Source: Nostoc edaphicum CCNP1411 (lineage in GTDB: Bacteria > Cyanobacteriota > Cyanobacteriia > Cyanobacteriales > Nostocaceae). From it: 64,000 nucleotides of DNA. Every line of letters begins with the position of its first letter. The first letter of the stretch is position 1. The notes beneath the pieces were generated by a model that ran no database searches, had not been told where the DNA came from, and saw nothing but the letters and a program-made list of their open reading frames with translations. Below are positions 1-30,734 of this stretch, piece by piece. Both the position numbers and the translations under genes were made by a program. The DNA lies in contig NZ_CP054698.1 in NCBI RefSeq assembly GCF_014023275.1, positions 4,216,001 to 4,280,000 of the forward strand, read 5' to 3'.

Positions 1-1046
1 ATATTGCTGATGTGCTGCTAGCGATCGCTCGTCGTGTAAGTCAAAGTCTTGATAAAATTACTCTGGAGTCACCTAACAAATTTAATGAGTTGCTGCAAGG
101 TGCTTGGAAGGTCTTAAACTCCGAGGTGACAGCGGGAAAAGTTAAGCTTCCGGTGGTTGGTGATGTCGGTTTATCCGCAGATAAAGAAAAGTTGTCTCTG
201 TCTGTGGGCATTGGTGAAATCACCGCGAAGATGAAAAATGACCCAACACTGCGAGAAAAACTCAATCAGTATTTAGCACCGCAGAAAACGAAACTGCTGG
301 AAGCGATTAATCAAGAATTATTGGAACCTGCGATCGCTAAACTCAAACAGCAAGGTAAAAATGGTCTGGTGGTAATTGTCGATAATCTTGACCGCATAGA
401 TAATCGTGCCAAACCTTGGGGTCGTCCGCAGCAAGAATATTTATTTGTCGATCAGGGTGAGTTTTTGACGAAGCTGAATTGTCATCTCATCTACACCATG
501 CCCTTATCTTTGAAGTTTTCCAATGATTACGGAATGCTAACCCAGCGTTTCCCAGAAGATCCCAAGGTGTTACCAATGGTACCTGTACAATGGTCTGATG
601 GCAGTGTTCATACACAGGGAATGGCACTCATGCAGCAGATGGTACTAGCTAGAGCTTTTCCTGACTTGACACCAGAGGAGCGTTTAAGTAAAGTTACCGA
701 AATTTTTGATAGTGCTGCTAGCCTAGAACGCTTATGTAAAATGAGCGGTGGTCATGTGCGAGATGTGTTAAGGCTGCTGAATACCTGGATTATGGAAGAG
801 ATGAGTCTTCCCTTAACCCGTGAAACCTTAGAGCAAGTGATTCGTTCTCGGCGGAATGAAATTATGTTGCCGATTTCTGAGGTTGAGTGGCAATTGTTAC
901 GTCACGTCAAGGAAAGAAAAAAGGTGAGTGATGACCACGGATATCAAAAACTGATTCGCAGTCGGTTTGTGTTTGAATATCGGGATAGTGGCGAGTCTTG
1001 GTTTGATGTTAATCCGGTTTTGGCAGAAGCGAAGGAGTTGCAGTGA
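1..1046 (+). CDS. KAP-like P-loop ATPase, 5' end outside the window
   Basis: The reading frame is open to the first base of the window, so the N-terminus, including any Walker A motif, lies upstream. The first possible start in the window is a GTG at 12. The visible 344 residues contain a hydrophobic Walker B strand, VVIVDNLDRID, at about residues 120-130. After it comes an alpha-helical region with SGGHVRDVLRLL, as in the lid of AAA/KAP-type NTPases. The family role is likely signalling or conflict; the substrate is unknown. It is followed after 211 bp by a giant STAND protein on the same strand. Calling it KAP-like rather than another STAND ATPase is inference, because only the C-terminal part is visible. 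Confidence 0.6.
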   Translation, partial: IADVLLAIARRVSQSLDKITLESPNKFNELLQGAWKVLNSEVTAGKVKLPVVGDVGLSADKEKLSLSVGIGEITAKMKNDPTLREKLNQYLAPQKTKLLEAINQELLEPAIAKLKQQGKNGLVVIVDNLDRIDNRAKPWGRPQQEYLFVDQGEFLTKLNCHLIYTMPLSLKFSNDYGMLTQRFPEDPKVLPMVPVQWSDGSVHTQGMALMQQMVLARAFPDLTPEERLSKVTEIFDSAASLERLCKMSGGHVRDVLRLLNTWIMEEMSLPLTRETLEQVIRSRRNEIMLPISEVEWQLLRHVKERKKVSDDHGYQKLIRSRFVFEYRDSGESWFDVNPVLAEAKELQ

Positions 1047-1069
1047 AGTATCTTTCACTTACCCACTCA

Positions 1070-1196
1070 CCCGCCAGGGATTAAAATCCCAGGCTAATAG
1101 CTAAAGTCCTCTTAAGAGGACTAATAATTACTTCCAGTCTACTAGTCCACTGAAGTGGACTTCAGCTATTAGCCTTGCACTTAAGTGCAAGGCGGG
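1070..1196. repeat. Multi-arm inverted repeat (cloverleaf-like)
   Basis: Nested perfect stems are visible. CCCGCC (1070-1075) pairs with GGCGGG (1191-1196). GGCTAATAGCT (1092-1102) pairs with AGCTATTAGCC (1164-1174). Inside or beside these are an 18-nt palindrome at 1104-1121, an 8-bp hairpin at 1144-1161 and a 20-nt palindrome at 1173-1192. It fills the gap between two genes and could act as a transcript-processing or termination structure. The layout resembles the smaller element at 31327-31381, so I read it as a dispersed cyanobacterial repeat. Confidence 0.8.
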
Positions 1197-1257
1197 ATAT
1201 GTTGACTCAACGTCAAAACATATAGTCAAAATTCGCACCTGAAAAGCACATAAGCTT

Positions 1258-4200
1258 ATGACAGACTCGCAATCACCAGAAGATGATCGTGTAAGCAGCA
1301 ATCGCTCTCTGAAACAATTAGCTTGGGCGATCGAATCCTCTGTGGGACAGTTTAAGCTGATATTGGCACGGTGTAATTATGCTAGCTTGCGCGATCGCTT
1401 AATCTCCAAATTGCAGGAAATTTGTCAAGTTGAAATTCGTGTCTTGGCAGTGCAGCAATCTAACAGGACTCTTTATACTGCAATTCAGGAAGAATTCGGC
1501 GCAGAAATGCCAGCCTGTGTGATGGTTGTGGGTTTGGAATCAGTGCAGAATTTGTCTGTGATGTTAACTTCTGCAAATCAAGTGAGAGAGGAGTTTCGCA
1601 AGAATTTTGCTTTTCCCTTAGTGTTGTGGATTGACGATGAAATCTACAAGCAACTAATACAACTTGCGCCTGATTTGGAAAGTTGGGCAACTACGAGAGA
1701 TTTTGCCATATCAACACAAGAATTAGTAGATTTTATTATCGAAACAGCTAATCAATGGTTTAGTAATAACTTCAAATTTAGCGTAGATGTATATATCAAA
1801 CTGGAAAATGAGTTAGAAGCGGCGCAAAGAGAATTACTTAAAAAGCCAGATGTTTATAATTTAGAAATTGAAGCTAATTTAGAATCTTTGTTAGGTTTTA
1901 TCAAACAGATAAATAATCAAACAGATTCGGCGTTAGAGCATTATCACAAAGCTGATAAACTCTGGCAGCAAAGTCATAATTTAGAACGACAGGCAAAAGT
2001 CCCTGAGTTTTCACCTCATCCTCAAAACCTAACCCCCCAGCCCCCTTCCCTACAAGTTAAGGGGGAGAATTCAAAGCCTCTCTCCTTGCAGGAGAGAGGT
2101 TTGGAGAGAGGTTTTTCCGATTCCATGAAACGACAGGTAAAAATCCTTAGTGAGATTGGCTTTTGTTATTATTTAAAAGCTTTTAAACATCAAGATATCA
2201 ATCATCCAGATTGGCAAGCAACTTGGCATTATATTCAAGAGTATATAAATTTTATTAGCCGATTGAGAAGTCCAAATTTAATTGCTAATTCAGTAGTTAA
2301 ATTCGGTGATATCTTGCGAGACTTGCAAAAGTGGGAAACCTTGCAGAGTCTTTCCGAACAAGCTTTAGTAATCCATCAAAATAACAACCAGCTAAGAGAA
2401 TTAGCTAAAGATTACGGTTTTTTAGCTGAGGTAGCTTTGGCTCAAAAAAACTGGGTCAAAGCAAATCAGCTTGTTCAGCAAGCCTTAAAGATTTTTTCTA
2501 CGATTCCCAATCTGGAATCAGCAAATACATCAGGGATTTTATCTGATATTCCCGAAAGAGATTTAAAATCAAAAGATTTGAGTTTATATCAGTTTATTTT
2601 AGGCCGTTCTCAATACCAATTAAGTCAAACTCAACAGGCAACTCTCAGCTTAGAAACTGCTAGGAATGTAGGTAATCCCCTAGAAGATGTCAGACTTTAC
2701 TTGGATATTCTCAGATTTTTGCAGCAGCTTTACTTTGAGCAGAAAGAATATCTCAAAGCATACAAAATCAAACAGCAACAGCGTTCTATTGAACAGCAAT
2801 TTGGTTTGCGGGCTTTTATTGGTGCAGGTAGATTAGAAGCTACCAAACAGGCATTTGTCGAGACATTGCGCTCAAACTCTCCCCAAGGAAACATTGCCCC
2901 AGAAATTGCTGCATCTGGTCGCCTCTTGGATGTAGAACGTTTGATTGAACGCATGGGTCGCCCTGATTATAAGTTGATAGTAATTCATGGGCAATCGGGT
3001 GTCGGCAAAAGTTCCCTGGTGAATGCGGGATTAGTGCCAGCTTTAAAGAATAAAGCGATCGGTACTCAAGATTATTTGTCGGTAGTAATGCGTGTTTATA
3101 CCAACTGGGTGGAAGAGTTGGGGAATCTTTTGGGAAGAGATGAGGGGGATGTAGCTTTAGCTTCTCGCAGGGTGGAGGATGAGGGGGATGGGGGAGGATT
3201 AGAAGGTCAACATCGAGCCTCAGAAGGTCAACATCGAGCCTCAGAAGGTCAACATCGAGCCTCAGAAGGTCAACGTCGAGCCTCAGAAGGTCAACGTCGA
3301 GCTTCAGAAGGTCAACTTCGAGTCTCAGAACTCGGAACTCCGCAATATTTAATATCCAAACTCAAAGAAAACGAACAGCGCAACCTCCGCACGGTGTTAA
3401 TTTTTGATCAATTTGAGGAATTTTTCTTTGTTTACACCGAACCTCTACAAAGGAAGCAATTCTTTGAGTTTCTGGGAGAGTGTCTGAATGTTCTATCAGT
3501 GAAAGTAATCTTATCACTGCGGGTAGATTACATCCATTACTTGCTAGAGTGCAATGATTTGTCCAGTCTCAAGATTATTGGCAATGATATTCTCAGCAAT
3601 AATGTGCTTTACAAGTTGGGGAACTTCTCACCTGCTGATGCGAAGTCAATTATTCAGCGTTTAATTGAAAATACTAGTTTTCGCTTAGAACCTGCTTTAG
3701 TTGAACAAATGGTGCTGGATTTAGCCGGAGAATTGGGTGAAGTTCGTCCCATTGAGTTGCAGGTTGTGGGGGCACAACTGCAAACGGAGAATATTACAAC
3801 TTTGGCGGAATATCTGCAACGTGGCACTAAGGACGAATTGGTTAAGCGTTATTTGGATGAAGTTGTTAATGATTGTGGTGAAGAAAATCAGCAAACAGCA
3901 GACATATTAATGTATTTGCTGACGGATGAAAAAGGAACTCGCCCTTTGAAGACTCGCGCTGAGTTAGAACGCGATTTGATGCCTTATTTCTCTGAGATCC
4001 CCCCAACCCCCCTTAAAAAGGGGGGCTTTATTCTTTCTATCCCCTTTTTAAGGCGATCGCCGAAGGCGGGGGGATCAGAAGCTAGGGCGGAACAAGGTTC
4101 TGAAATTAGTAAATTAGATTTAGTGTTGGAGATTCTTGTCCAATCCGGCTTAGTGGTTTTGCTACCAGAAAACTTCGCCGACCGTTATCAACTGGTACAT

Positions 4201-6642
4201 GACTATATTGCCGCCTTTATCCGCCAGCAACAGGAACCGAAGTTAAAACAGGTGATGGCGGAACTGGAAAAAGAACGAGAACAAAGAAAACAAAGTGAAG
4301 TAAAACTTAATCGTGTTTTCAAACGCGCCCTTTTTGGTTCCATAACCGCAGGTTTAGGATTTGCTGTTTTAGCTGCGGCAACATTCCAGTGGGCAATAGA
4401 GGCAAATGTTAGTCAAATTAACGCCATCAATAATTCTTCTGAAGCCTTTGCTGTCTCTGGACAATATCCAGATGCTTTAATAACGGCCTTAAGGGCAAGT
4501 AGCAAACTCAAGCATACACTTTGGGCACAGCACAGAAGTGATATCTCAATGCTAACTGTGGCAACTTTACAGCAAGCGGTTTATTTAAAGCCAAACGAGA
4601 AGAAAGAAAATCGAGCGATCGAGGTGAATACTTTAGAAGGGCATAGCAGTTGGGTCAATAGCGTCGTCTTCAGCCCCGATGGACAACAGTTAGCTTCTGC
4701 TAGTGATGACAAAACCATCAAAATCTGGGATGTCAGCAGTGGCAAACTCCTCAAATCCCTGACTGGTCATAGTAGTAGGGTCATTAGCGTCGCCTACAGC
4801 CCCAATCGACAACAGTTAGCTTCTGCTAGTCTTGACAAAACCATCAAAATCTGGGACGTCAGCAGTGGTAAAATCCTCAAATCCCTGACTGGTCATAGCA
4901 GTGCGGTTATTAGCGTCGCTTACAGCCCCAATGGACAACAGTTAGCTTCTGCTAGTTGGGATAAGACCATCAAAATTTGGGATGTCAGCAGTGGTAAAAT
5001 CCTCAAATCTTTGACTGGTCATAGCAGTGCGGTAAATAGCGTTGCCTACAGCCCTAATGGTCAAGAGGTAGCTTCTGCTAGTGGTGACAAGACCATCAAA
5101 ATCTGGGATATCAACAGTGGTAAAATCCTTAAATCCCTGACTGGTCATAGCAATTCGGTCTATAGTGTCGCCTATAGCCCCAATGGACAACAGTTAGCTT
5201 CTGCTAGTGGTGACAAGACCATCAAAATCTGGGATATCAACAGTGGTAAACTCCGCCAATCCTTGAATGGTTATAGAAGTGTAGTCAAGAACATCGTCTA
5301 TAGCCCCAACGGACAAGATTTAGTTTCCGCTAGTCTTGACAAGACTATCAAAATCTGGGATGTCAGCAGTGCTAAAATCCTCAAATCCCTGACTGGTCAT
5401 GGCAGTTGGGTCAATAGCGTCGCCTATAGCCCCAATGGACAACAGTTAGCTTCTGCTAGTGGTGACAAGACCATCAAAATCTGGGATGTTAGCAGTGGTA
5501 AAATCCTCAAATCCCTCTCTGGTCATAGTAATTGGGTTATTAGTGTCGCCTACAGCCCCAATAAACAAGAGTTAGCATCTGCTAGTAGTGACAAGACCAT
5601 CAAAATCTGGGATGCCAACAGTGGTCAACTCCGCCAATCGCTGATTGGTCATAGCAGTAATGTATATAGCGTCGCCTATAGTCCCAATGGACAACAGTTA
5701 GCTTCTGCTAGTGCTGACAACACTATCAAAATCTGGGATGTCAGCAATGGTCAACTCCTTAAATCCCTAACTGGTCATAATAGTACAGTTTATAGCGTTG
5801 CCTACAGCCCCACTGGACAACAGTTAGCTTCCGCTAGTGAAGACAAGACTATCAAAATCTGGGATGCCAAAAGTGGTCAACTCCTCAAATCCCTGACTGA
5901 TCATACCAGTGCGGTAAATAATATCGCTTACAGCCCTAATGGACACCAGTTAGCTTCCGTTAGTCGTGACAATACCATCAAAATCTGGGATGTCAGCAAT
6001 GGTCAACTCCTTAAATCCCTAACTGGTCATAATAGTACAGTTTATAGCGTTGCCTACAGCCCCGCTGGACAACAGTTAGCTTCCGCTAGTGAAGACAACA
6101 TTATCAAAATCTGGGATATCAACAGTGGTGAACTCCTCAAATCCTTGACTGGTCATAGCAGTGGGGTCAGAAGTATTGCCTACAGCCCCAATGGACAACA
6201 GTTAGCTTCCGCTAGTTATGACAAGACGATCAAAATCTGGGATGTCAGCAGTGGTAAACTACTCAAAACCCTGACTGGTCATAGGAGTGAGGTTTTTAGC
6301 GTCGGCTACAGCCCCAATGGAAAACAGTTAGTTTCTGGTGGTTATGACAAAACGATAATTTTATGGGATTTGGATTTCGATAATTTATTACTCAGTGGTT
6401 GCAATTTGCTGAATAATTACCTCATTGCCCATCCAGAAGTGTTAGAAGAGTTGCAAACATGCCAAACTCAATCTCGTTTGACGCAAGGTGCAACAGTGTT
6501 AGTCATCCAAGGTGAAAAGTTAGCGCGAAATAATGATATTAATGGCGCTGTTGAAAAGTTTGGCAAAGCACAGCAGTGGGATAATAAATTAAAGTTTGAT
6601 TCCCAGGCGAGAGCGAAAGAGTTAGCAAATCAAGCTAAGTAA
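1258..6642 (+). CDS. Giant TPR / STAND NTPase / WD40 protein
   Basis: The protein has 1794 residues. After an N-terminal domain (about 1-180) comes a helical TPR-like region (about 185-545). A STAND-type NTPase follows, with Walker A GQSGVGKSS at 578 and Walker B VLIFDQFEEFF at about 713. One membrane segment lies at about 1023-1046. Fourteen 42-residue WD40 repeats (1126 to about 1713) equal two seven-bladed propellers. Such proteins are sensor-switches that oligomerise on ligand binding; in cyanobacteria most are uncharacterised. The ATG at 1258 follows an A-rich leader. Three low-complexity inserts (about 257-288, 649-690, 914-945) are translations of dispersed DNA repeats. The same-strand neighbours, a P-loop ATPase and a nuclease-like protein, suggest a shared conflict-type function, which is inference. 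Confidence 0.85.
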   Translation: MTDSQSPEDDRVSSNRSLKQLAWAIESSVGQFKLILARCNYASLRDRLISKLQEICQVEIRVLAVQQSNRTLYTAIQEEFGAEMPACVMVVGLESVQNLSVMLTSANQVREEFRKNFAFPLVLWIDDEIYKQLIQLAPDLESWATTRDFAISTQELVDFIIETANQWFSNNFKFSVDVYIKLENELEAAQRELLKKPDVYNLEIEANLESLLGFIKQINNQTDSALEHYHKADKLWQQSHNLERQAKVPEFSPHPQNLTPQPPSLQVKGENSKPLSLQERGLERGFSDSMKRQVKILSEIGFCYYLKAFKHQDINHPDWQATWHYIQEYINFISRLRSPNLIANSVVKFGDILRDLQKWETLQSLSEQALVIHQNNNQLRELAKDYGFLAEVALAQKNWVKANQLVQQALKIFSTIPNLESANTSGILSDIPERDLKSKDLSLYQFILGRSQYQLSQTQQATLSLETARNVGNPLEDVRLYLDILRFLQQLYFEQKEYLKAYKIKQQQRSIEQQFGLRAFIGAGRLEATKQAFVETLRSNSPQGNIAPEIAASGRLLDVERLIERMGRPDYKLIVIHGQSGVGKSSLVNAGLVPALKNKAIGTQDYLSVVMRVYTNWVEELGNLLGRDEGDVALASRRVEDEGDGGGLEGQHRASEGQHRASEGQHRASEGQRRASEGQRRASEGQLRVSELGTPQYLISKLKENEQRNLRTVLIFDQFEEFFFVYTEPLQRKQFFEFLGECLNVLSVKVILSLRVDYIHYLLECNDLSSLKIIGNDILSNNVLYKLGNFSPADAKSIIQRLIENTSFRLEPALVEQMVLDLAGELGEVRPIELQVVGAQLQTENITTLAEYLQRGTKDELVKRYLDEVVNDCGEENQQTADILMYLLTDEKGTRPLKTRAELERDLMPYFSEIPPTPLKKGGFILSIPFLRRSPKAGGSEARAEQGSEISKLDLVLEILVQSGLVVLLPENFADRYQLVHDYIAAFIRQQQEPKLKQVMAELEKEREQRKQSEVKLNRVFKRALFGSITAGLGFAVLAAATFQWAIEANVSQINAINNSSEAFAVSGQYPDALITALRASSKLKHTLWAQHRSDISMLTVATLQQAVYLKPNEKKENRAIEVNTLEGHSSWVNSVVFSPDGQQLASASDDKTIKIWDVSSGKLLKSLTGHSSRVISVAYSPNRQQLASASLDKTIKIWDVSSGKILKSLTGHSSAVISVAYSPNGQQLASASWDKTIKIWDVSSGKILKSLTGHSSAVNSVAYSPNGQEVASASGDKTIKIWDINSGKILKSLTGHSNSVYSVAYSPNGQQLASASGDKTIKIWDINSGKLRQSLNGYRSVVKNIVYSPNGQDLVSASLDKTIKIWDVSSAKILKSLTGHGSWVNSVAYSPNGQQLASASGDKTIKIWDVSSGKILKSLSGHSNWVISVAYSPNKQELASASSDKTIKIWDANSGQLRQSLIGHSSNVYSVAYSPNGQQLASASADNTIKIWDVSNGQLLKSLTGHNSTVYSVAYSPTGQQLASASEDKTIKIWDAKSGQLLKSLTDHTSAVNNIAYSPNGHQLASVSRDNTIKIWDVSNGQLLKSLTGHNSTVYSVAYSPAGQQLASASEDNIIKIWDINSGELLKSLTGHSSGVRSIAYSPNGQQLASASYDKTIKIWDVSSGKLLKTLTGHRSEVFSVGYSPNGKQLVSGGYDKTIILWDLDFDNLLLSGCNLLNNYLIAHPEVLEELQTCQTQSRLTQGATVLVIQGEKLARNNDINGAVEKFGKAQQWDNKLKFDSQARAKELANQAK
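3202..3327 (+). repeat. In-frame 21-bp minisatellite, six copies
   Basis: The unit GAAGGTCAACATCGAGCCTC(A) is repeated six times head to tail with few changes and encodes the heptapeptide EGQHRAS. It sits between Walker A and Walker B of the STAND domain, presumably in a surface loop. Because the unit is 21 bp, copy-number change keeps the frame. Confidence 0.95.
4633..6396 (+). repeat. Fourteen near-identical 126-bp WD40-coding repeats
   Basis: Each unit encodes 42 residues of the form LTGHSSxVxSVAYSPNGQQL followed by ASASxDKTIKIWDxxSGKxLKS. Units are highly similar at DNA level, especially the stretches coding SPNGQQLASAS and TIKIWD. This indicates recent duplication or gene conversion. 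The exposed positions (after GHSS, and before DKT) are the ones that vary. Confidence 0.95.
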
Positions 6643-6732
6643 GACCTAACCCCCAGCCCCTTCCCTGCTAGCGTTGGGGAGTAAGATTCAAAGCCTTTCT
6701 CCTCTTAAGAGAGAGGTTTGAAGAGAGGTTAA
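6643..6732. repeat. Dispersed pyrimidine/purine repeat, also found inside the upstream gene
   Basis: It begins ctaacccccagcccctt and ends with two copies of agagaggtt. The same unit occurs within the STAND coding sequence at about 2028-2117, where it is translated. The agag/ctct arms can pair into hairpins, so this copy may also serve as a terminator. Confidence 0.7.
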
Positions 6733-6782
6733 AAGTGTTGCTTCCATTCGAGAACTGCTATAAATAATCACAAGGTGGAAGG

Positions 6783-7397
6783 ATGGCATACAGCGATTTT
6801 AGTCTCGCTAAGGTGAAAAAGAGTTTTGATTTAACACTCGATGAAACTCGGAATTTATTTGTTGATACAAAACCTGTTACACCATCAGAAACACTCAGAA
6901 CGATTTTAATAGATTACATTCCTTTAGCAACTGCAATTTCAACCGAAAAAGCAAGGTCAGAGTTTTTAATTGCACCAATCCTCGCAGAAGTCAGACGATT
7001 ATTAAATAATAAAATATCACTGTTCTCTGGAAATGAATTTAATGTTGATGCAACTCAAGGCTTACAAGGCTTTTGCGATTACATCATCAGCAATTCCCAA
7101 GAACAATTATTTCTTTCTGCTCCGGTAATGTTTATTTTTGAAGCGAAAAAAGAAGATATTATCGGCGGTCTGGGTCAATGTGTAGCGGCAATGATTGCAG
7201 CGCAACTGTTCAATCAAAATCAAGGCAATGAAGTTGGGCGAATTTACGGCTCGGTTACTAGTGGAACTAACTGGAAGTTTTTATTTTTAGAAGAGACGAC
7301 TGTTTATATAGATTCGACTGAATACTATATTAAAGAAGTTGATAAACTTTTAGGTATTTTATTGCAACCTTTTCAGCCTGTTTTAACTGCTGTTTAA
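6783..7397 (+). CDS. PD-(D/E)XK-like putative nuclease
   Basis: The protein has 204 residues and matches no enzyme I can name. It carries the spacing of a PD-(D/E)XK fold: E60 in a helix (ARSEFLIAPIL), D99 (GFCDYII), E120-x-K122 in a hydrophobic strand (MFIFEAKKED), and Q132 in the following helix (GLGQCVAAM). This fits a nuclease or a nuclease-derived domain. The start is an ATG at 6783, with GGTGGAAGG just upstream as ribosome site. It follows the STAND gene by 140 bp on the same strand and could be an effector partner. The fold assignment comes from motif reading only. Confidence 0.55.
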   Translation: MAYSDFSLAKVKKSFDLTLDETRNLFVDTKPVTPSETLRTILIDYIPLATAISTEKARSEFLIAPILAEVRRLLNNKISLFSGNEFNVDATQGLQGFCDYIISNSQEQLFLSAPVMFIFEAKKEDIIGGLGQCVAAMIAAQLFNQNQGNEVGRIYGSVTSGTNWKFLFLEETTVYIDSTEYYIKEVDKLLGILLQPFQPVLTAV

Positions 7398-7507
7398 ATA
7401 TATTGCAGGTGCTAATGTAACTTACCTGGTCAAGTTTTAAAATTTGCTAAAAAATAAGATAAGTTAAACAACTCGTTTACCATTCAGTATCTAGGCATAA
7501 ATAAATT

Positions 7508-9074
7508 CTGGAGTTTAGACTAAATACGAGCAAACGGAAGATAACACCAACAGACTTACGGAGCTAAAAAATCACACTACAAATAAAGAACAGAAACCTC
7601 TCGAAAAAGAAAAAGTGGTCAGTCATGTTGAACTAACCACTTTTTGGTCAATGCTGAAAAGAGGAAATATCTTACAGCTTGACCATGACATTAGATAAGC
7701 TTAAACAATTCCGCACAGGAATATACACCATCCTGGGCAAAGCCAAAGATGCTTTATTTGACCTGATGGATGCAGTGTTGGTAACACGTAGTGTTTATTC
7801 ATTTGCAGAATTATCGGTAAGTCCAGTATTTAGAAGAAAGTGGTCTAGTACCTATGAAGCAATACAAGACGGTGAGCCACCCAGAACAGAATTAATGAAG
7901 TTGTATATAAAACAACAGTCAGTTAGAGAACAAATAGTCTTAGCAGGAGATCATACAGCTTGGGCAAGACCTGATGCGCGCACACTTCGAGAACGAACTT
8001 TTGAGCATCAAGCCCATCCAATGTCAGGGGCAAAACCAGTAACAATAGGACAAGGTTACAGCACCATAGCAATAATTCCAGAAACAGAAGGCAGTTGGGC
8101 ATTACCGTTATTACATGAACGGATTACAAGTTTTGAAAACCCGATTCAAAAAGCTGCGGCACAACTAAAACTTGTTTGTGAAAATTTGCCAACACGTCCG
8201 ATTAGCTTGTGGGATGCGGAATATGGCTGTGCAAGTTTTGTCAAACAAACTGCCGACATTGCCGCAGATAAATTAATGCGCGTGCGTTCTAATCGACTAC
8301 TCTATGGTGCGCCGCCAGTTTATCGAGGTCATGGTCGTCCGAGGATTCATGGTGATAAGTTCAAGGTGAACGACTCAACTACATGGTGGACACCCGACCA
8401 AAGTTTAGAGATTAATGATTCCAAAATGGGGCAGATGTGCATCCGTCTGTGGTGTAATCTGCATTTTCAACAGTCTGCTAAACACTCAATGAATCTGATT
8501 CAAATCCAGCGAACTGATGAATTGGGGGAGGCGAAGACAAAACCTTTATGGTTAGTGTGGGTTGGAGTTGAAATGCCGGCTTTATCACAATTATGGCGAC
8601 TTTACTTTCGCCGATTTGCGATTGACCATTGGTATAGATTTGCCAAGCAACGACTACATTGGACGCTTCCAAATCTCAGCACTCCTGAACAGTGTGAGCG
8701 ATGGAGTGATCTTTTACCTCTGATGACTTGGCAATTATGGTTAGCACGCGATTTTGTCACCGACAACCCTTTACCCTGGCAAAAACCAAAACCCAAGCTG
8801 AGTCCCGGACGAGTAGCTCAAGCGATGGGAGAAATTTTCGCGGCAATTGGGACACCTGCTGTTCCTCCTAAACCTCGTGGAAAATCCCCTGGATGGACAG
8901 AAGGTCAAACTCGCACTCGTAGAATTCGTTATCCAACTGTCAAAAAAAGCACTGCAAAACAAAAAAAACAAGTGCCACAATCTGCTTAATTCTTTGATTT
9001 TTCAATTTTGGGGTGTAATGCTTGTGACTCAGTTATCCTGAGTTACTTTGTCATGCGTTTAGTCTAAACTCCAG
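7508..9074 (+). mobile_element. Complete insertion sequence with 17-bp inverted ends (IS701-like)
   Basis: The left end ctggagtttagactaaa (7508-7524) is the exact reverse complement of the right end at 9058-9074. The 1567-bp element carries one transposase gene. It abuts, without spacer, an inverted partial copy of itself (9075-9859). No target-site duplication can be read, because the left flank is unrelated to the partial copy. Confidence 0.88.
7685..8989 (+). CDS. Transposase, IS701-like DDE family
   Basis: About 434 residues from the ATG at 7685; a TTG two codons earlier is possible. An RNase H-like core is suggested by D91 (LAGDHTAW, counted from the TTG), D179 (SLWDAEYGC) and the late motif FAIDHWYRFAKQRL, where the usual third acidic residue appears as Asp. 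The C-terminus is basic (KKSTAKQKKQ), consistent with DNA binding. Length and motifs fit IS701-related transposases of cyanobacteria. The gene is intact inside an element with perfect ends, so the copy may be active. Confidence 0.85.
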   Translation: MTLDKLKQFRTGIYTILGKAKDALFDLMDAVLVTRSVYSFAELSVSPVFRRKWSSTYEAIQDGEPPRTELMKLYIKQQSVREQIVLAGDHTAWARPDARTLRERTFEHQAHPMSGAKPVTIGQGYSTIAIIPETEGSWALPLLHERITSFENPIQKAAAQLKLVCENLPTRPISLWDAEYGCASFVKQTADIAADKLMRVRSNRLLYGAPPVYRGHGRPRIHGDKFKVNDSTTWWTPDQSLEINDSKMGQMCIRLWCNLHFQQSAKHSMNLIQIQRTDELGEAKTKPLWLVWVGVEMPALSQLWRLYFRRFAIDHWYRFAKQRLHWTLPNLSTPEQCERWSDLLPLMTWQLWLARDFVTDNPLPWQKPKPKLSPGRVAQAMGEIFAAIGTPAVPPKPRGKSPGWTEGQTRTRRIRYPTVKKSTAKQKKQVPQSA

Positions 9075-9682
9075 TTAGAACGCACGCGCATTAATTTATC
9101 TGCGGCAATGTCGGCAGTTTGTTTGACAAAACTTGCACAGCCATATTCCGCATCCCACAAGCTAATCGGACGTGTTGGCAAATTTTCACAAACAAGTTTT
9201 AGTTGTGCCGCAGCTTTTTGAATCGGGTTTTCAAAACTTGTAATCCGTTCATGTAATAACGGTAATGCCCAACTGCCTTCTGTTTCTGGAATTATTGCTA
9301 TGGTGCTGTAACCTTGTCCTATTGTTACTGGTTTTGCCCCTGACATTGGATGGGCTTGATGCTCAAAAGTTCGTTCTCGAAGTGTGCGCGCATCAGGTCT
9401 TGCCCAAGCTGTATGATCTCCTGCTAAGACTATTTGTTCTCTAACTGACTGTTGTTTTATATACAACTTCATTAATTCTGTTCTGGGTGGCTCACCGTCT
9501 TGTATTGCTTCATAGGTACTAGACCACTTTCTTCTAAATACTGGACTTACCGATAATTCTGCAAATGAATAAACACTACGTGTTACCAACACTGCATCCA
9601 TCAGGTCAAATAAAGCATCTTTGGCTTTGCCCAGGATGGTGTATATTCCTGTGCGGAATTGTTTAAGCTTATCTAATGTCAT
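9075..9682 (-). pseudogene. Truncated IS701-like transposase
   Basis: The first 200 or so residues match the intact transposase at 7685-8989. The frame then runs into the terminal repeat of the neighbouring element and stops within it. D91 and D179 are kept, but the C-terminal catalytic region is gone, so it should be inactive. Confidence 0.9.
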
Positions 9683-9859
9683 GGTCAAGCTGTAAGATAT
9701 TTCCTCTTTTCAGCATTGACCAAAAAGTGGTTAGTTCAACATGACTGACCACTTTTTCTTTTTCGAGAGGTTTCTGTTCTTTATTTGTAGTGTGATTTTT
9801 TAGCTCCGTAAGTCTGTTGGTGTTATCTTCCGTTTGCTCGTATTTAGTCTAAACTCCAG
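9075..9859 (-). mobile_element. Inverted partial copy of the same insertion sequence
   Basis: This 785-bp segment mirrors 7508-8292, including the outer terminal repeat at 9843-9859. It stops mid-gene where the right end of the complete copy begins. The missing half of the element is not found on the other side of the complete copy, so material has been lost. Confidence 0.9.
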
Positions 9860-9985
9860 GCACTGGGTATTACTGTTTTAGTCATGAATAAAATTTTATT
9901 CATTGGCTGTAGAAAATAGGAATTGAAGGAGGCTTGTCAATTTTGCCTTCAGAAGCCATTGTTGGCAAGAGTTTTCACGGGTGCG

Positions 9986-10022
9986 GTTTCCAAAGCCCTC
10001 TCGTTAGGTGGTGGGTTGAAAG
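9986..10022 (+). CRISPR. Type V-K-style CRISPR direct repeat (37 nt)
   Basis: A single 37-nt unit begins GTTTCCAAAGCCC and ends GGTGGTGGGTTGAAAG. Length, the GTTTC start and the GTGGGTTGAAAG end match the repeats used by Cas12k (type V-K) CRISPR-associated transposons. It is followed by about 22-39 nt of unmatched sequence and then by a degenerate second repeat. No tracrRNA-like sequence and no cas12k gene are visible nearby. I read it as the last repeat of an eroded array. Confidence 0.72.
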
Positions 10023-10044
10023 TTATGATCCCCGAAGTAGGCGC

Positions 10045-10115
10045 TTTGGTTATATAATTTTGTATTAGGGTGGTTTGAAAGGAGTGCTGCGATCGCACGT
10101 AAAACGCAGCTAGAT
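10045..10115 (+). ncRNA. Delocalised V-K guide (degenerate repeat plus tRNA-matching spacer)
   Basis: The degenerate repeat ends at 10081 with TATTAGGGTGGTTTGAAAG. Its last 20 nt align with the 37-nt repeat, while its 5' half has diverged. The spacer starts GAGTGCTGCGATCGCAC (10082-10098) and matches tRNA-Ala positions 22-38 (GAGCGCTGCGATCGCAC), with one mismatch at base 4. In the tRNA the base triplet before the match is GTA, a GTN PAM. This is the arrangement known for homing guides of type V-K CASTs. Caution: the central GCGATCGC is the HIP1 octamer, which is common here, so the informative part is the flank, the PAM and the context. The 3' end of the RNA is a guess. Confidence 0.7.
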
Positions 10116-10290
10116 AGTAGCGAAGCCTCTGTTTCGGTGAAAACAGTAAAACAAGAGGTAGGAAATTTTTGTAATTAGACTGCAAATAAAGTGCTTTAAA
10201 GCTACCCTGTAATTCAAGAGCCTTGGGCTTGCTCTATATAAATTAAATTAGAAAACATATATATATAGCCGAGTTTTACAGGCTGATTTT

Positions 10291-10445
10291 GGACAATAAT
10301 TATTTAAAACTGGTTTCAACTCTGGACAATAATTATTTAAAACTGATTTGATTGCTGAAAGCCCCGAAAATACGTAACTTATGCCCCTGAACTTGGAAAA
10401 CTGGACATTAATTCTTTAAAAGTGACAATAATTATTTAATGTACA
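10291..10445. mobile_element. Tn7-like (CAST) transposon end with four 22-bp sites
   Basis: Four copies of a 22-bp motif lie at 10291-10312, 10324-10345, 10403-10424 and 10424-10445. The first two are identical (ggacaataattatttaaaac then tg). The last ends in ATGTACA, so the terminus read inward is TGTACATTAAATAATTATTG. TGTACA termini followed by TGTC-type repeats are typical TnsB-binding ends of type V-K CASTs. The end stops at 10445, two bases from the 3' end of tRNA-Ala. No tns gene is next to it and the partner end is not in the window. Confidence 0.75.
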
Positions 10446-10450
10446 CATGG
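10446..10450. other. Presumed insertion junction (5-bp duplication site CATGG)
   Basis: Tn7-like elements duplicate 5 bp. If the terminus is TGTACA at 10445, the flanking five bases are CATGG, which include the last three bases of the tRNA gene. The partner copy would flank the other end, which is not in the window. Confidence 0.4.
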
Positions 10451-10520
10451 AGAATAACGGATTTGAACCGATGGCCTCTGCGGTGCGATCGCAGCGCTCT
10501 ACCAACTGAGCTAATTCCCC
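10448..10520 (-). tRNA. tRNA-Ala (anticodon CGC)
   Basis: Read on the minus strand, the 73-nt gene folds into a 7-bp acceptor (GGGGAAT with ATTCTCC, one G-T pair), a D arm (GCTC...GAGC), an anticodon arm CTGCG-ATCGCAC-CGCAG, a 5-nt variable loop and a T arm with loop TTCAAAT. The anticodon CGC reads Ala codon GCG. CCA is not encoded. Oddities: the second T-stem pair is T-T, and the HIP1 octamer GCGATCGC spans the anticodon. Its 3' end is two bases from the CAST-like end, and its D-arm/anticodon region is the match of the delocalised spacer. Confidence 0.93.
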
Positions 10521-29342: not shown

Positions 29343-30734
29343 CTATTTGTCTACACCTACAGAAATAAGTTTGCTGTAATATTCAGTTTTTGCATAGATG
29401 CTGATAATACTATCGCCAACTACAAAAAAAGTACCTTCTTGCTCATCTTTAGAAAATTTCAAATTTGGATATTTAGCAGCAGCTTCGTCAGATGTCATGG
29501 CTTTTGCTTCCATTTGTTTTGGCAATAGTCCAGTAGAACCAATGTAAAATACCAAGGGAGATATCTTATCTTGGTAGATATTTTCTGCATATTCTTCTAG
29601 CTTGTGATTTGCCGTCGTTAAAGCTGTAACCATTTCCTCTTTGCTGATCTGTTTACCAGTTTGTTTATCCTGTAATAACTGCGCCAAACTATCAGCACCA
29701 ACTTTCTTAAGAATACCTCCAACAATACCATTTTGCTCAAGCCCAAGAAAATCATCAAAAATTGGTTTCATCAACTCGTCAACTTTGCTAGTTTTAGTGC
29801 GTGATGACAATAACCTGTGCCTAACAGCGAGATTCTCATTAAATGCCATTTCAAAACTAGGCTTAATGATAATTTCTCCAGTTTCTTTGTCATAAAGACG
29901 ATACATTCTATTGAGAAACTTGTTAGCAGAAGGTAACTTACCCAAGTTCAAAATATCTTGACTGCCGATATCGATTTTATAGCTAAATTTTGATTCAATA
30001 GTACCATTAGCTAAAGCTTCGTTGATATCAATGTATTCGTTAGTCGTAGGAAAGTTGATGTAAATATTCTTGGACAGATAGTGCTTTTGAAACTCATCTA
30101 ACTGCGTCTCTATAAATACATCTGACTCCTTTCTCAAGTGAGCGCCAATAATACTAGTCAGTACTTTAATTTCTGCTAGTTCATTGAATACTCCATCAAT
30201 ACTGCTGTAAATACTATTAGCAGCTACAAGTGGCAAGCTATCTAACTGAATGGTATATTCAGCCCGAAAGTCGAATTTTTCCGCATCTAGAATGCCTTTT
30301 TCTTTGAGTAAGTCAAATACTTTTTTGCTGCTGATTTTGACTTGTAATGACTTTACGTTGATTTTGCCGTCACTTACAATCGTGTAATTATTAAAATTAT
30401 TGAGGTCATTTACTAGCAAACCTGCTACTTCAAGAGTGGGAGTTTTGTCTTCAGATTTTGCAAGTTTTACTTTACGTTTGACAAGCATATTGATAGTAGC
30501 AGTATTGCGGTTAAACTGAAACTTGCCCATACCGACATACTCAGCATTATCCATATATTCTGTTTGCAACCAAGGTTGGAGCAGTTCCCCGTTTTCGTTC
30601 CTAACACCTCTAACACGTTTGATACCTGTTCTTTGATAATTTTCTTGCAGGTGCTTGATATTGACAATAATATTGTTGCGATGTTGTGCAAAAATTTGGA
30701 TTAGTTCTACCAGAGAAATTTGATTCTTTGTCAT
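29343..30734 (-). CDS. Hypothetical protein, unknown family
   Basis: The 463-residue soluble protein has no signal peptide or membrane segment. It has mixed alpha/beta content and a long run of charged helices at about 330-410 (LLQDKQTGKQISKEEMVTAL). I recognise no catalytic motif. The ATG is preceded by a purine-poor leader, agggtggcaatatg. It is isolated, with 250 bp of repeat sequence downstream and 700 bp upstream. The frame is long, clean and in normal codon use, so the gene is real although its role is unknown. Confidence 0.65.
   Translation of the reverse strand: MTKNQISLVELIQIFAQHRNNIIVNIKHLQENYQRTGIKRVRGVRNENGELLQPWLQTEYMDNAEYVGMGKFQFNRNTATINMLVKRKVKLAKSEDKTPTLEVAGLLVNDLNNFNNYTIVSDGKINVKSLQVKISSKKVFDLLKEKGILDAEKFDFRAEYTIQLDSLPLVAANSIYSSIDGVFNELAEIKVLTSIIGAHLRKESDVFIETQLDEFQKHYLSKNIYINFPTTNEYIDINEALANGTIESKFSYKIDIGSQDILNLGKLPSANKFLNRMYRLYDKETGEIIIKPSFEMAFNENLAVRHRLLSSRTKTSKVDELMKPIFDDFLGLEQNGIVGGILKKVGADSLAQLLQDKQTGKQISKEEMVTALTTANHKLEEYAENIYQDKISPLVFYIGSTGLLPKQMEAKAMTSDEAAAKYPNLKFSKDEQEGTFFVVGDSIISIYAKTEYYSKLISVGVDK

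Follow-up and report, generated by a model that had tools for sequence, protein, structure and literature searches.

What is the short, repeat-bearing sequence that stands beside a tRNA gene of Nostoc edaphicum CCNP1411, what became of the element it belonged to, and could any part of it still be in use? We analyzed a stretch of 64,000 nucleotides (the window; G000:C6:4216001-4280000) of the 8.3-Mb host genome, which comes in 6 contigs. An earlier note on this DNA had read the region as the remnant of the homing module of a type V-K CRISPR-associated transposon (CAST), and this reading stands: elements at the same tRNA that have a full Cas12k carry the same repeat, truncated repeat (R*), anchor and end. 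We have little doubt that window 9860-10445 (586 bases) is the left-end stump of a V-K CAST at tRNA-Ala(CGC), one that keeps R* and a 17-nt guide with a 16/17 match to the tRNA and that probably lost everything else to an insertion sequence (IS). The stump is thus a relic of a known kind.

Anatomy of the stump

The features are listed in window coordinates; G122 denotes the genome of Nostoc sp. KVJ20, which carries a complete relative.

1..7507, no strand: host flank, collinear with G122 contig positions 1-8060; not cargo of the stump element
7508..9074, plus strand: full IS copy with CTGGAGTTTAGACTAAA terminal repeats and a 436-aa transposase (7679-8989; NF041680, 574.6 bits)
9075..9859, minus strand: inverted and truncated IS copy, identical to the full copy over 785 bp
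9860..9985, plus strand: array leader, from the lost tracrRNA to the first repeat (97.6% identity with G122 over window 9860-10023)
9986..10022, plus strand: sole remaining full 37-nt CRISPR repeat, identical to the G122 array repeats
10053..10058, plus strand: TATAAT, predicted -10 box of the R*-anchor guide promoter (TAnnnT at the aligned position in 17/18 loci)
10067..10081, plus strand: truncated repeat R*, AGGGTGGTTTGAAAG (alignment of loci; architecture as in PMC9938897)
10082..10098, plus strand: anchor (homing) spacer, 17 nt, GAGTGCTGCGATCGCAC (match to tRNA-Ala(CGC))
10290..10445, no strand: left end with four GACAATAATTATTTAA-type repeats starting at 10292, 10325, 10404 and 10424, predicted TnsB sites, conserved in 18 aligned loci
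10440..10445, no strand: TGTACA left-end terminus, followed by CATGG, 54 bp from the PAM
10448..10520, minus strand: tRNA-Ala(CGC), which serves as the attachment gene and is oriented towards the element (ARAGORN; Rfam RF00005, 64.9 bits)
10483..10502, minus strand: protospacer in the tRNA gene (10483-10499) and GTA PAM (10500-10502), by sequence comparison

The tRNA was the sole match in the Rfam search of the window region. Most parts described in the earlier note reappeared at the same places: the 37-nt repeat from 9986, whose counterparts in G122 accompany an intact Cas12k; the 5'-degenerate second repeat ending at 10081, which is R*; the 16/17 match to tRNA-Ala with GTA on the PAM side; and the repeat-bearing TGTACA end 54 bp from that PAM. 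The spacer that it placed after the full repeat held in one part, the anchor at 10082-10098 matching the tRNA, and failed in another: the stretch 10023-10066, between the full repeat and R*, is common to several genomes, holds the TATAAT and is no ordinary spacer.

A complete relative at the same site

A DNA search (E ≤ 0.001) matched the stump stretch in 108 of 217 family genomes, many by end repeats only, and 20 of the matches were given as loci. Among the loci listed, the closest outside the window was that of G122 (93% identity over 9986-10446), followed by G131 (91%). Contig 127 of G122 (108,747 bases) carries an element at the same site with a right end, tnsB, tnsC, tniQ, cargo, cas12k (NF038191, 808.8 bits), array, R*-anchor unit and left end; tnsC and tniQ are named by place and order, with no NCBIfam match to either, and TnsB matches transposase models that all score below their cut-offs. 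The comparison with V-K repeats that the earlier note had proposed thus has a definite result, the 37-nt unit being identical to the array repeats of a complete V-K element. CATGG flanks both ends of the G122 element. A full-length Cas12k match also lies next to this type of left end in G131, G140, G116 and G042. Homology to the window begins at 9860 in G122, G131 and G140, and 12 bases further left, at 9848, in G116.

The terminus reads TGTACA in the window and TGGACA at the left end of the G122 element, the right end of which is the matching TGTCCA; both forms are found in relatives. Given this one-base difference, the window and G122 may owe their insertions to separate events. Just outside the right end of the G122 element stands an older end that reads TGTACA and has inner repeats of another kind (GACATTGAATTTGCGAATGTACA; L026, G122:C127:9060-9135). 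It is the trace of an earlier CAST-like insertion at the same tRNA, a site struck more than once.

Loss of the rest of the element

The window runs collinear with G122 1-8060 from 711 bases before its start up to position 7516; the next block of homology begins at 9860, equivalent to G122 32045, so that about 24 kb of G122 sequence is missing from the window. Between the two homology blocks, and exactly where homology stops, lie two inverted IS copies that share 785 bp at 100% identity. Their transposase scores above the cut-off with NF041680 and below it with an IS701 model (57.3 bits, a weak likeness), and it has 12 tblastn matches in the genome, both window copies and fragments included.

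The absence of cas12k, tracrRNA and tns genes, as stated in the earlier note, was borne out over a wider range. Cas12k was found neither in the window, nor in the 60 kb to its left, nor in locus L164 (16 kb upstream of the anchor). In the window and the 60 kb to its left, TnsB had no match, no tnsC or tniQ was recognized by eye in the frame list, and the G122 stretch from cas12k to the leader, which holds the tracrRNA, matched nothing. No right end and no 5-bp target duplication were seen in the same range. The query for the right end was the 22-nt terminus, which a strongly diverged end would escape; it returned the left end (0 mismatches), inner repeats (5 and 6 mismatches) and two further places with 6 mismatches. 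An extension to the left in search of the partner end, as the note had suggested, was thus rewarded in part: CATGG stands at both ends of the complete relative, but no partner end lies within 60 kb left of the window.

Judged by the published mechanism, the ancestral element would have been brought by a Cas12k carrying the R*-anchor guide; with this guide bound to the tRNA gene at GTA, insertion would have put the left end about 54 bp downstream. The IS would then have taken out some 24 kb, made up of 1 kb of host DNA, the right end, the transposase genes, the cargo, cas12k and the tracrRNA. The position of the inverted pair makes the IS the likely maker of the deletion. The stump is predicted to be unable to move because its right end is absent. 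The guide, separated from its own Cas12k and tracrRNA, should be inactive in cis, though its likely own promoter (TATAAT, 10053-10058) would survive.

The ATPase, WD40 and small nuclease-like genes at 1-7507 were considered as CAST cargo and ruled out, as they form a collinear host flank in G122. The same flank encodes a long WD40-repeat protein, in which a P-loop motif was noticed by eye, and beside it lies a small gene matching PADLOC PD_DExK (6783-7397; the pair spans 1258-7397).

A probable promoter box before R*

In the alignment of 18 loci, three columns before R* are invariant, T at 10053, T at 10058 and T at 10066 directly before R*; a level of 90% is reached by A at 10054 and by three more columns. 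At the box, the more distant members have TAAAAT, TAGGAT, TAAAGT, TATAGT or TATAAT. A TAnnnT is present at the aligned place in 17 of the 18 loci, and in 20 of the 22 having this type of R* once L118, L132 and L137 are added, G155 and G174 being those without it; by exact offset, the counts are 15/18 and 3/26 loci. The first T, the second A and the last T are the most conserved positions of the bacterial -10 box. The recurrence of TAnnnT at a fixed distance before R* suggests that the guide probably has its own promoter in this lineage, from which transcription would begin close to R*. Among 22 loci with the other type of R*, none has TAnnnT at this offset, and the claim is therefore limited to the present R* lineage. 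The TATAAT at 10053 was absent from the output of a simple promoter scan, which requires a -35 match as well.

In PMC9938897, the V-K array of Anabaena is reported to lack its own promoter and to be co-transcribed with the tracrRNA; the partner of such co-transcription has been lost from the window. The V-K literature covered, partial in its sources and with the main homing paper (Saito 2021) outside it, yielded no statement on a promoter for the R*-anchor guide, which may be known. The conserved box before R* makes a direct prediction on the expression of homing guides apart from the array.

Retention and decay of the guide

We compared the window and G122 in a branch test with ten other loci as the outgroup. 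The window branch has 22 changes in the 347 bases after the anchor, 7 of them within 10290-10445, where the G122 branch has none. In the guide cassette (87 bases: repeat end, box, R* and anchor), neither branch has any change. Such a pattern would be expected of a dead end that drifts while its guide is kept, although the guide was constrained before the loss and several of the changed columns vary among relatives.

Among the 217 genomes, we found 44 loci with an R*-anchor unit (up to 3 mismatches allowed), a set for which facing tRNA-Ala(CGC) is established in some members only. Cas12k lies upstream at coverage of at least 50% in 23 of them, as smaller pieces only in 5 (one on a short contig) and not at all in 16. 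Thirteen of the last group lack Cas12k in 9.6-16 kb of upstream sequence, while the 3 others had under 2.5 kb of sequence. The anchor of G080 has no match within its short contig. Relics that carry a guide and lack Cas12k are thus common.

A second survey approached the site through the neighboring HAD gene and gave 73 loci, of which 71 show the tRNA; up to 9 kb was available for each, less on several contigs. The present end type is carried by 30 of the 71 sites: 6 with Cas12k at >80% coverage, 2 with less and 22 with none in up to 9 kb; in this survey, the Cas12k of L197, at 79% coverage, was counted as a fragment. The earlier note had named TGTACA-ended sequence in genomes that never carried a CAST as speaking against its reading; ends of this type do stand beside the tRNA without Cas12k in reach at those 22 of 30 sites, and the genomes concerned may once have carried a CAST. 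The R*-anchor unit is kept at 13 of the 30 sites, and 17 of the 24 lacking Cas12k at >80% have no recognizable anchor in the available sequence. Elsewhere, the box is absent from G155, and R* or the anchor is changed in G110 and G127. General selection to keep the guide is not supported by the site survey (17/24 without an anchor), whereas the branch test of the window leans the other way.

In one genome, three R*-anchor units lie within 33 kb (G003:C1:3973912, 3993384 and 4006433; L117-L119). Two are accompanied by full-length Cas12k of different lineages and one by a piece, and the trio represents CASTs stacked at one site. The tRNA-Ala(CGC) site in Nostocaceae is, in effect, a graveyard of CASTs at many stages of decay, where the exploitation of stranded guides by living elements could be studied.

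A second element and possible use of the guide in trans

The one Cas12k of the genome, a 642-aa frame without a stop, lies 269 kb from the stump in a divergent V-K CAST at tRNA-Val. Beside the tRNA-Val, this second element (C6:3953.9-3977.4 kb) has a left end, an array, Cas12k, a small MerR-like gene and frames that follow the order tniQ-tnsC-tnsB; gene names other than Cas12k and TnsB are given by order and likeness. Its anchor matches tRNA-Val at 17/17 bases with a GTT PAM, about 60 bp from the end. The other end matches at local position 29421, where the outer 5 bases repeat the left flank in inverted and not in direct orientation. The element is likely complete as a transposon. The inverted 5-base flanks read CTTTA and TAAAG (L046 and L047 joined, local 5930-5940 and 29416-29426).

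Could the stranded guide still be used by this element? A transcript from the guide's own promoter would be loaded with the tracrRNA and Cas12k of the tRNA-Val CAST and either add a second homing site or hold Cas12k on the tRNA-Ala(CGC) gene. Such use in trans is possible, and we rate it as unlikely. Speaking for it, the genome keeps the Cas12k beside TnsB, genes in the places of tnsC and tniQ, the MerR-like gene, an array and its own anchor, and the window branch has no change in the repeat end, promoter, R* and anchor (0/87, against 22/347 elsewhere; Fisher p 0.011). With anti-repeat segments picked by eye, R* pairs with the presumed anti-repeat of the second CAST over 10 bp at -13.8 kcal/mol (42 of 2000 shuffles were as good), about equal to the pairing with its cognate anti-repeat (-13.3 kcal/mol; 109 of 2000). 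Against the whole tracrRNA region, however, the pairing of R* was no better than that of shuffles, and likewise for the cognate element. Relics elsewhere decay, with the guide lost or changed in others, and all 10 sites that hold Cas12k (>80% coverage) among the 71 tRNA-Ala(CGC) sites, whatever their end type, have an anchor of their own, so that no case of homing in trans was seen among them.

A wider idea meets with similar doubt from us: the homing guide as a self-standing gene, in which the 5' part of an old repeat has turned promoter, with transcription starting at R*, and which has outlived its transposon and now serves, in trans, the Cas12k and tracrRNA of another, divergent CAST in the genome. 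If true, a dead element would still program the target site of a living one.

Two further observations concern the same genome. A lone CAST-type end (TGGACA with two inner repeats) lies on a 265-kb contig (L055:1748-1793; G000:C5:159748). At L054 (G000:C6:7501561-7504988), further TnsB-like frames are 32% and 23% identical to the G122 TnsB, one containing a stop; they are perhaps another Tn7-like element or a relic of one.

Other origins of the stretch

In place of a deletion stump, the stretch could be a short non-autonomous element, possessing both ends and a guide and moved by another CAST. A precedent exists in G155, where a right end, two repeats (the second imperfect), an R*-anchor unit and a left end fit within about 520 bp, but the flanks there show no 5-bp duplication. 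In our case, the window and the 60 kb left of it yielded no matching right end, and homology ends at the end of the IS, not at a transposon end. We consider this origin highly improbable and retain that of a deletion stump. The G155 locus itself (L040; G155:C1:4877750-4878270), beside tRNA-Ala(CGC), is a gene-less CAST reduced to ends and guide.

The match between anchor and tRNA calls for care, and the earlier note had warned that 8 of the 17 anchor bases are a HIP1 octamer. The warning was justified. We counted each of 63,872 17-mer places of the window once, leaving out the tRNA region: two reach 16/17 against the tRNA, one being the anchor itself, and both contain the octamer, of which the window has 466 places. 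HIP1 thus inflates the match. In 30 of the 37 distinct loci that we examined, the R*-anchor unit nevertheless faces tRNA-Ala(CGC), with GTA and at most 2 mismatches (0-2), a count that demanded a GT PAM; a search without that demand also gave GTA. We take the anchor match as genuine because the unit recurs at the same tRNA in relatives. The lone mismatch, at anchor base 4 (T against C in the tRNA), is the same in the window and in the complete element of G122, and is reversed in G125, G078, G134, G121 and G155. By our reading this base falls in the D-stem of the tRNA, and since both G-C and G-U are pairs there, the mismatch can be put down to drift of the tRNA. That chance alone set a HIP1-bearing 17-mer beside an unrelated repeat and an unrelated TGTACA is scarcely credible, a reading already ruled out by the relatives, with 10 of the 71 named tRNA sites combining the R*-anchor unit and a near-complete Cas12k.

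Comparison with known systems

The stump shows what a dead tRNA-homing CAST has left behind in a natural genome, namely its leader, a single repeat, the guide cassette and the left end. Its closest counterpart, the complete V-K CAST of G122, shares 93-98% identity over 9860-10445, the identical anchor with its mismatch and the same flanking genes; it differs in being complete (about 23.6 kb), with CATGG at both ends and the termini TGTCCA and TGGACA. The V-K CAST at tRNA-Val is a system of the same kind as the lineage of the stump and G122, with R* and a perfect 17-nt anchor, but its Cas12k and TnsB are 41% and 45% identical to those of G122 and its repeat, end sequence and tRNA are others. 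According to PMC9938897, the left end of a V-K CAST consists of a 37-nt repeat, an R* of about 12 nt and a 17-nt anchor, with a GTN PAM at a distance of 46-82 nt. Compared with this module, the stump has a single full repeat and is devoid of cas12k, tracrRNA, tnsB and the right end. It shares with the module, as described there, the 37-nt repeat, the short R*, the 17-nt anchor, the TGTACA end with inner repeats and the GTN PAM in a tRNA gene that is oriented towards the left end, and its distance of 54 bp falls within the published 46-82.
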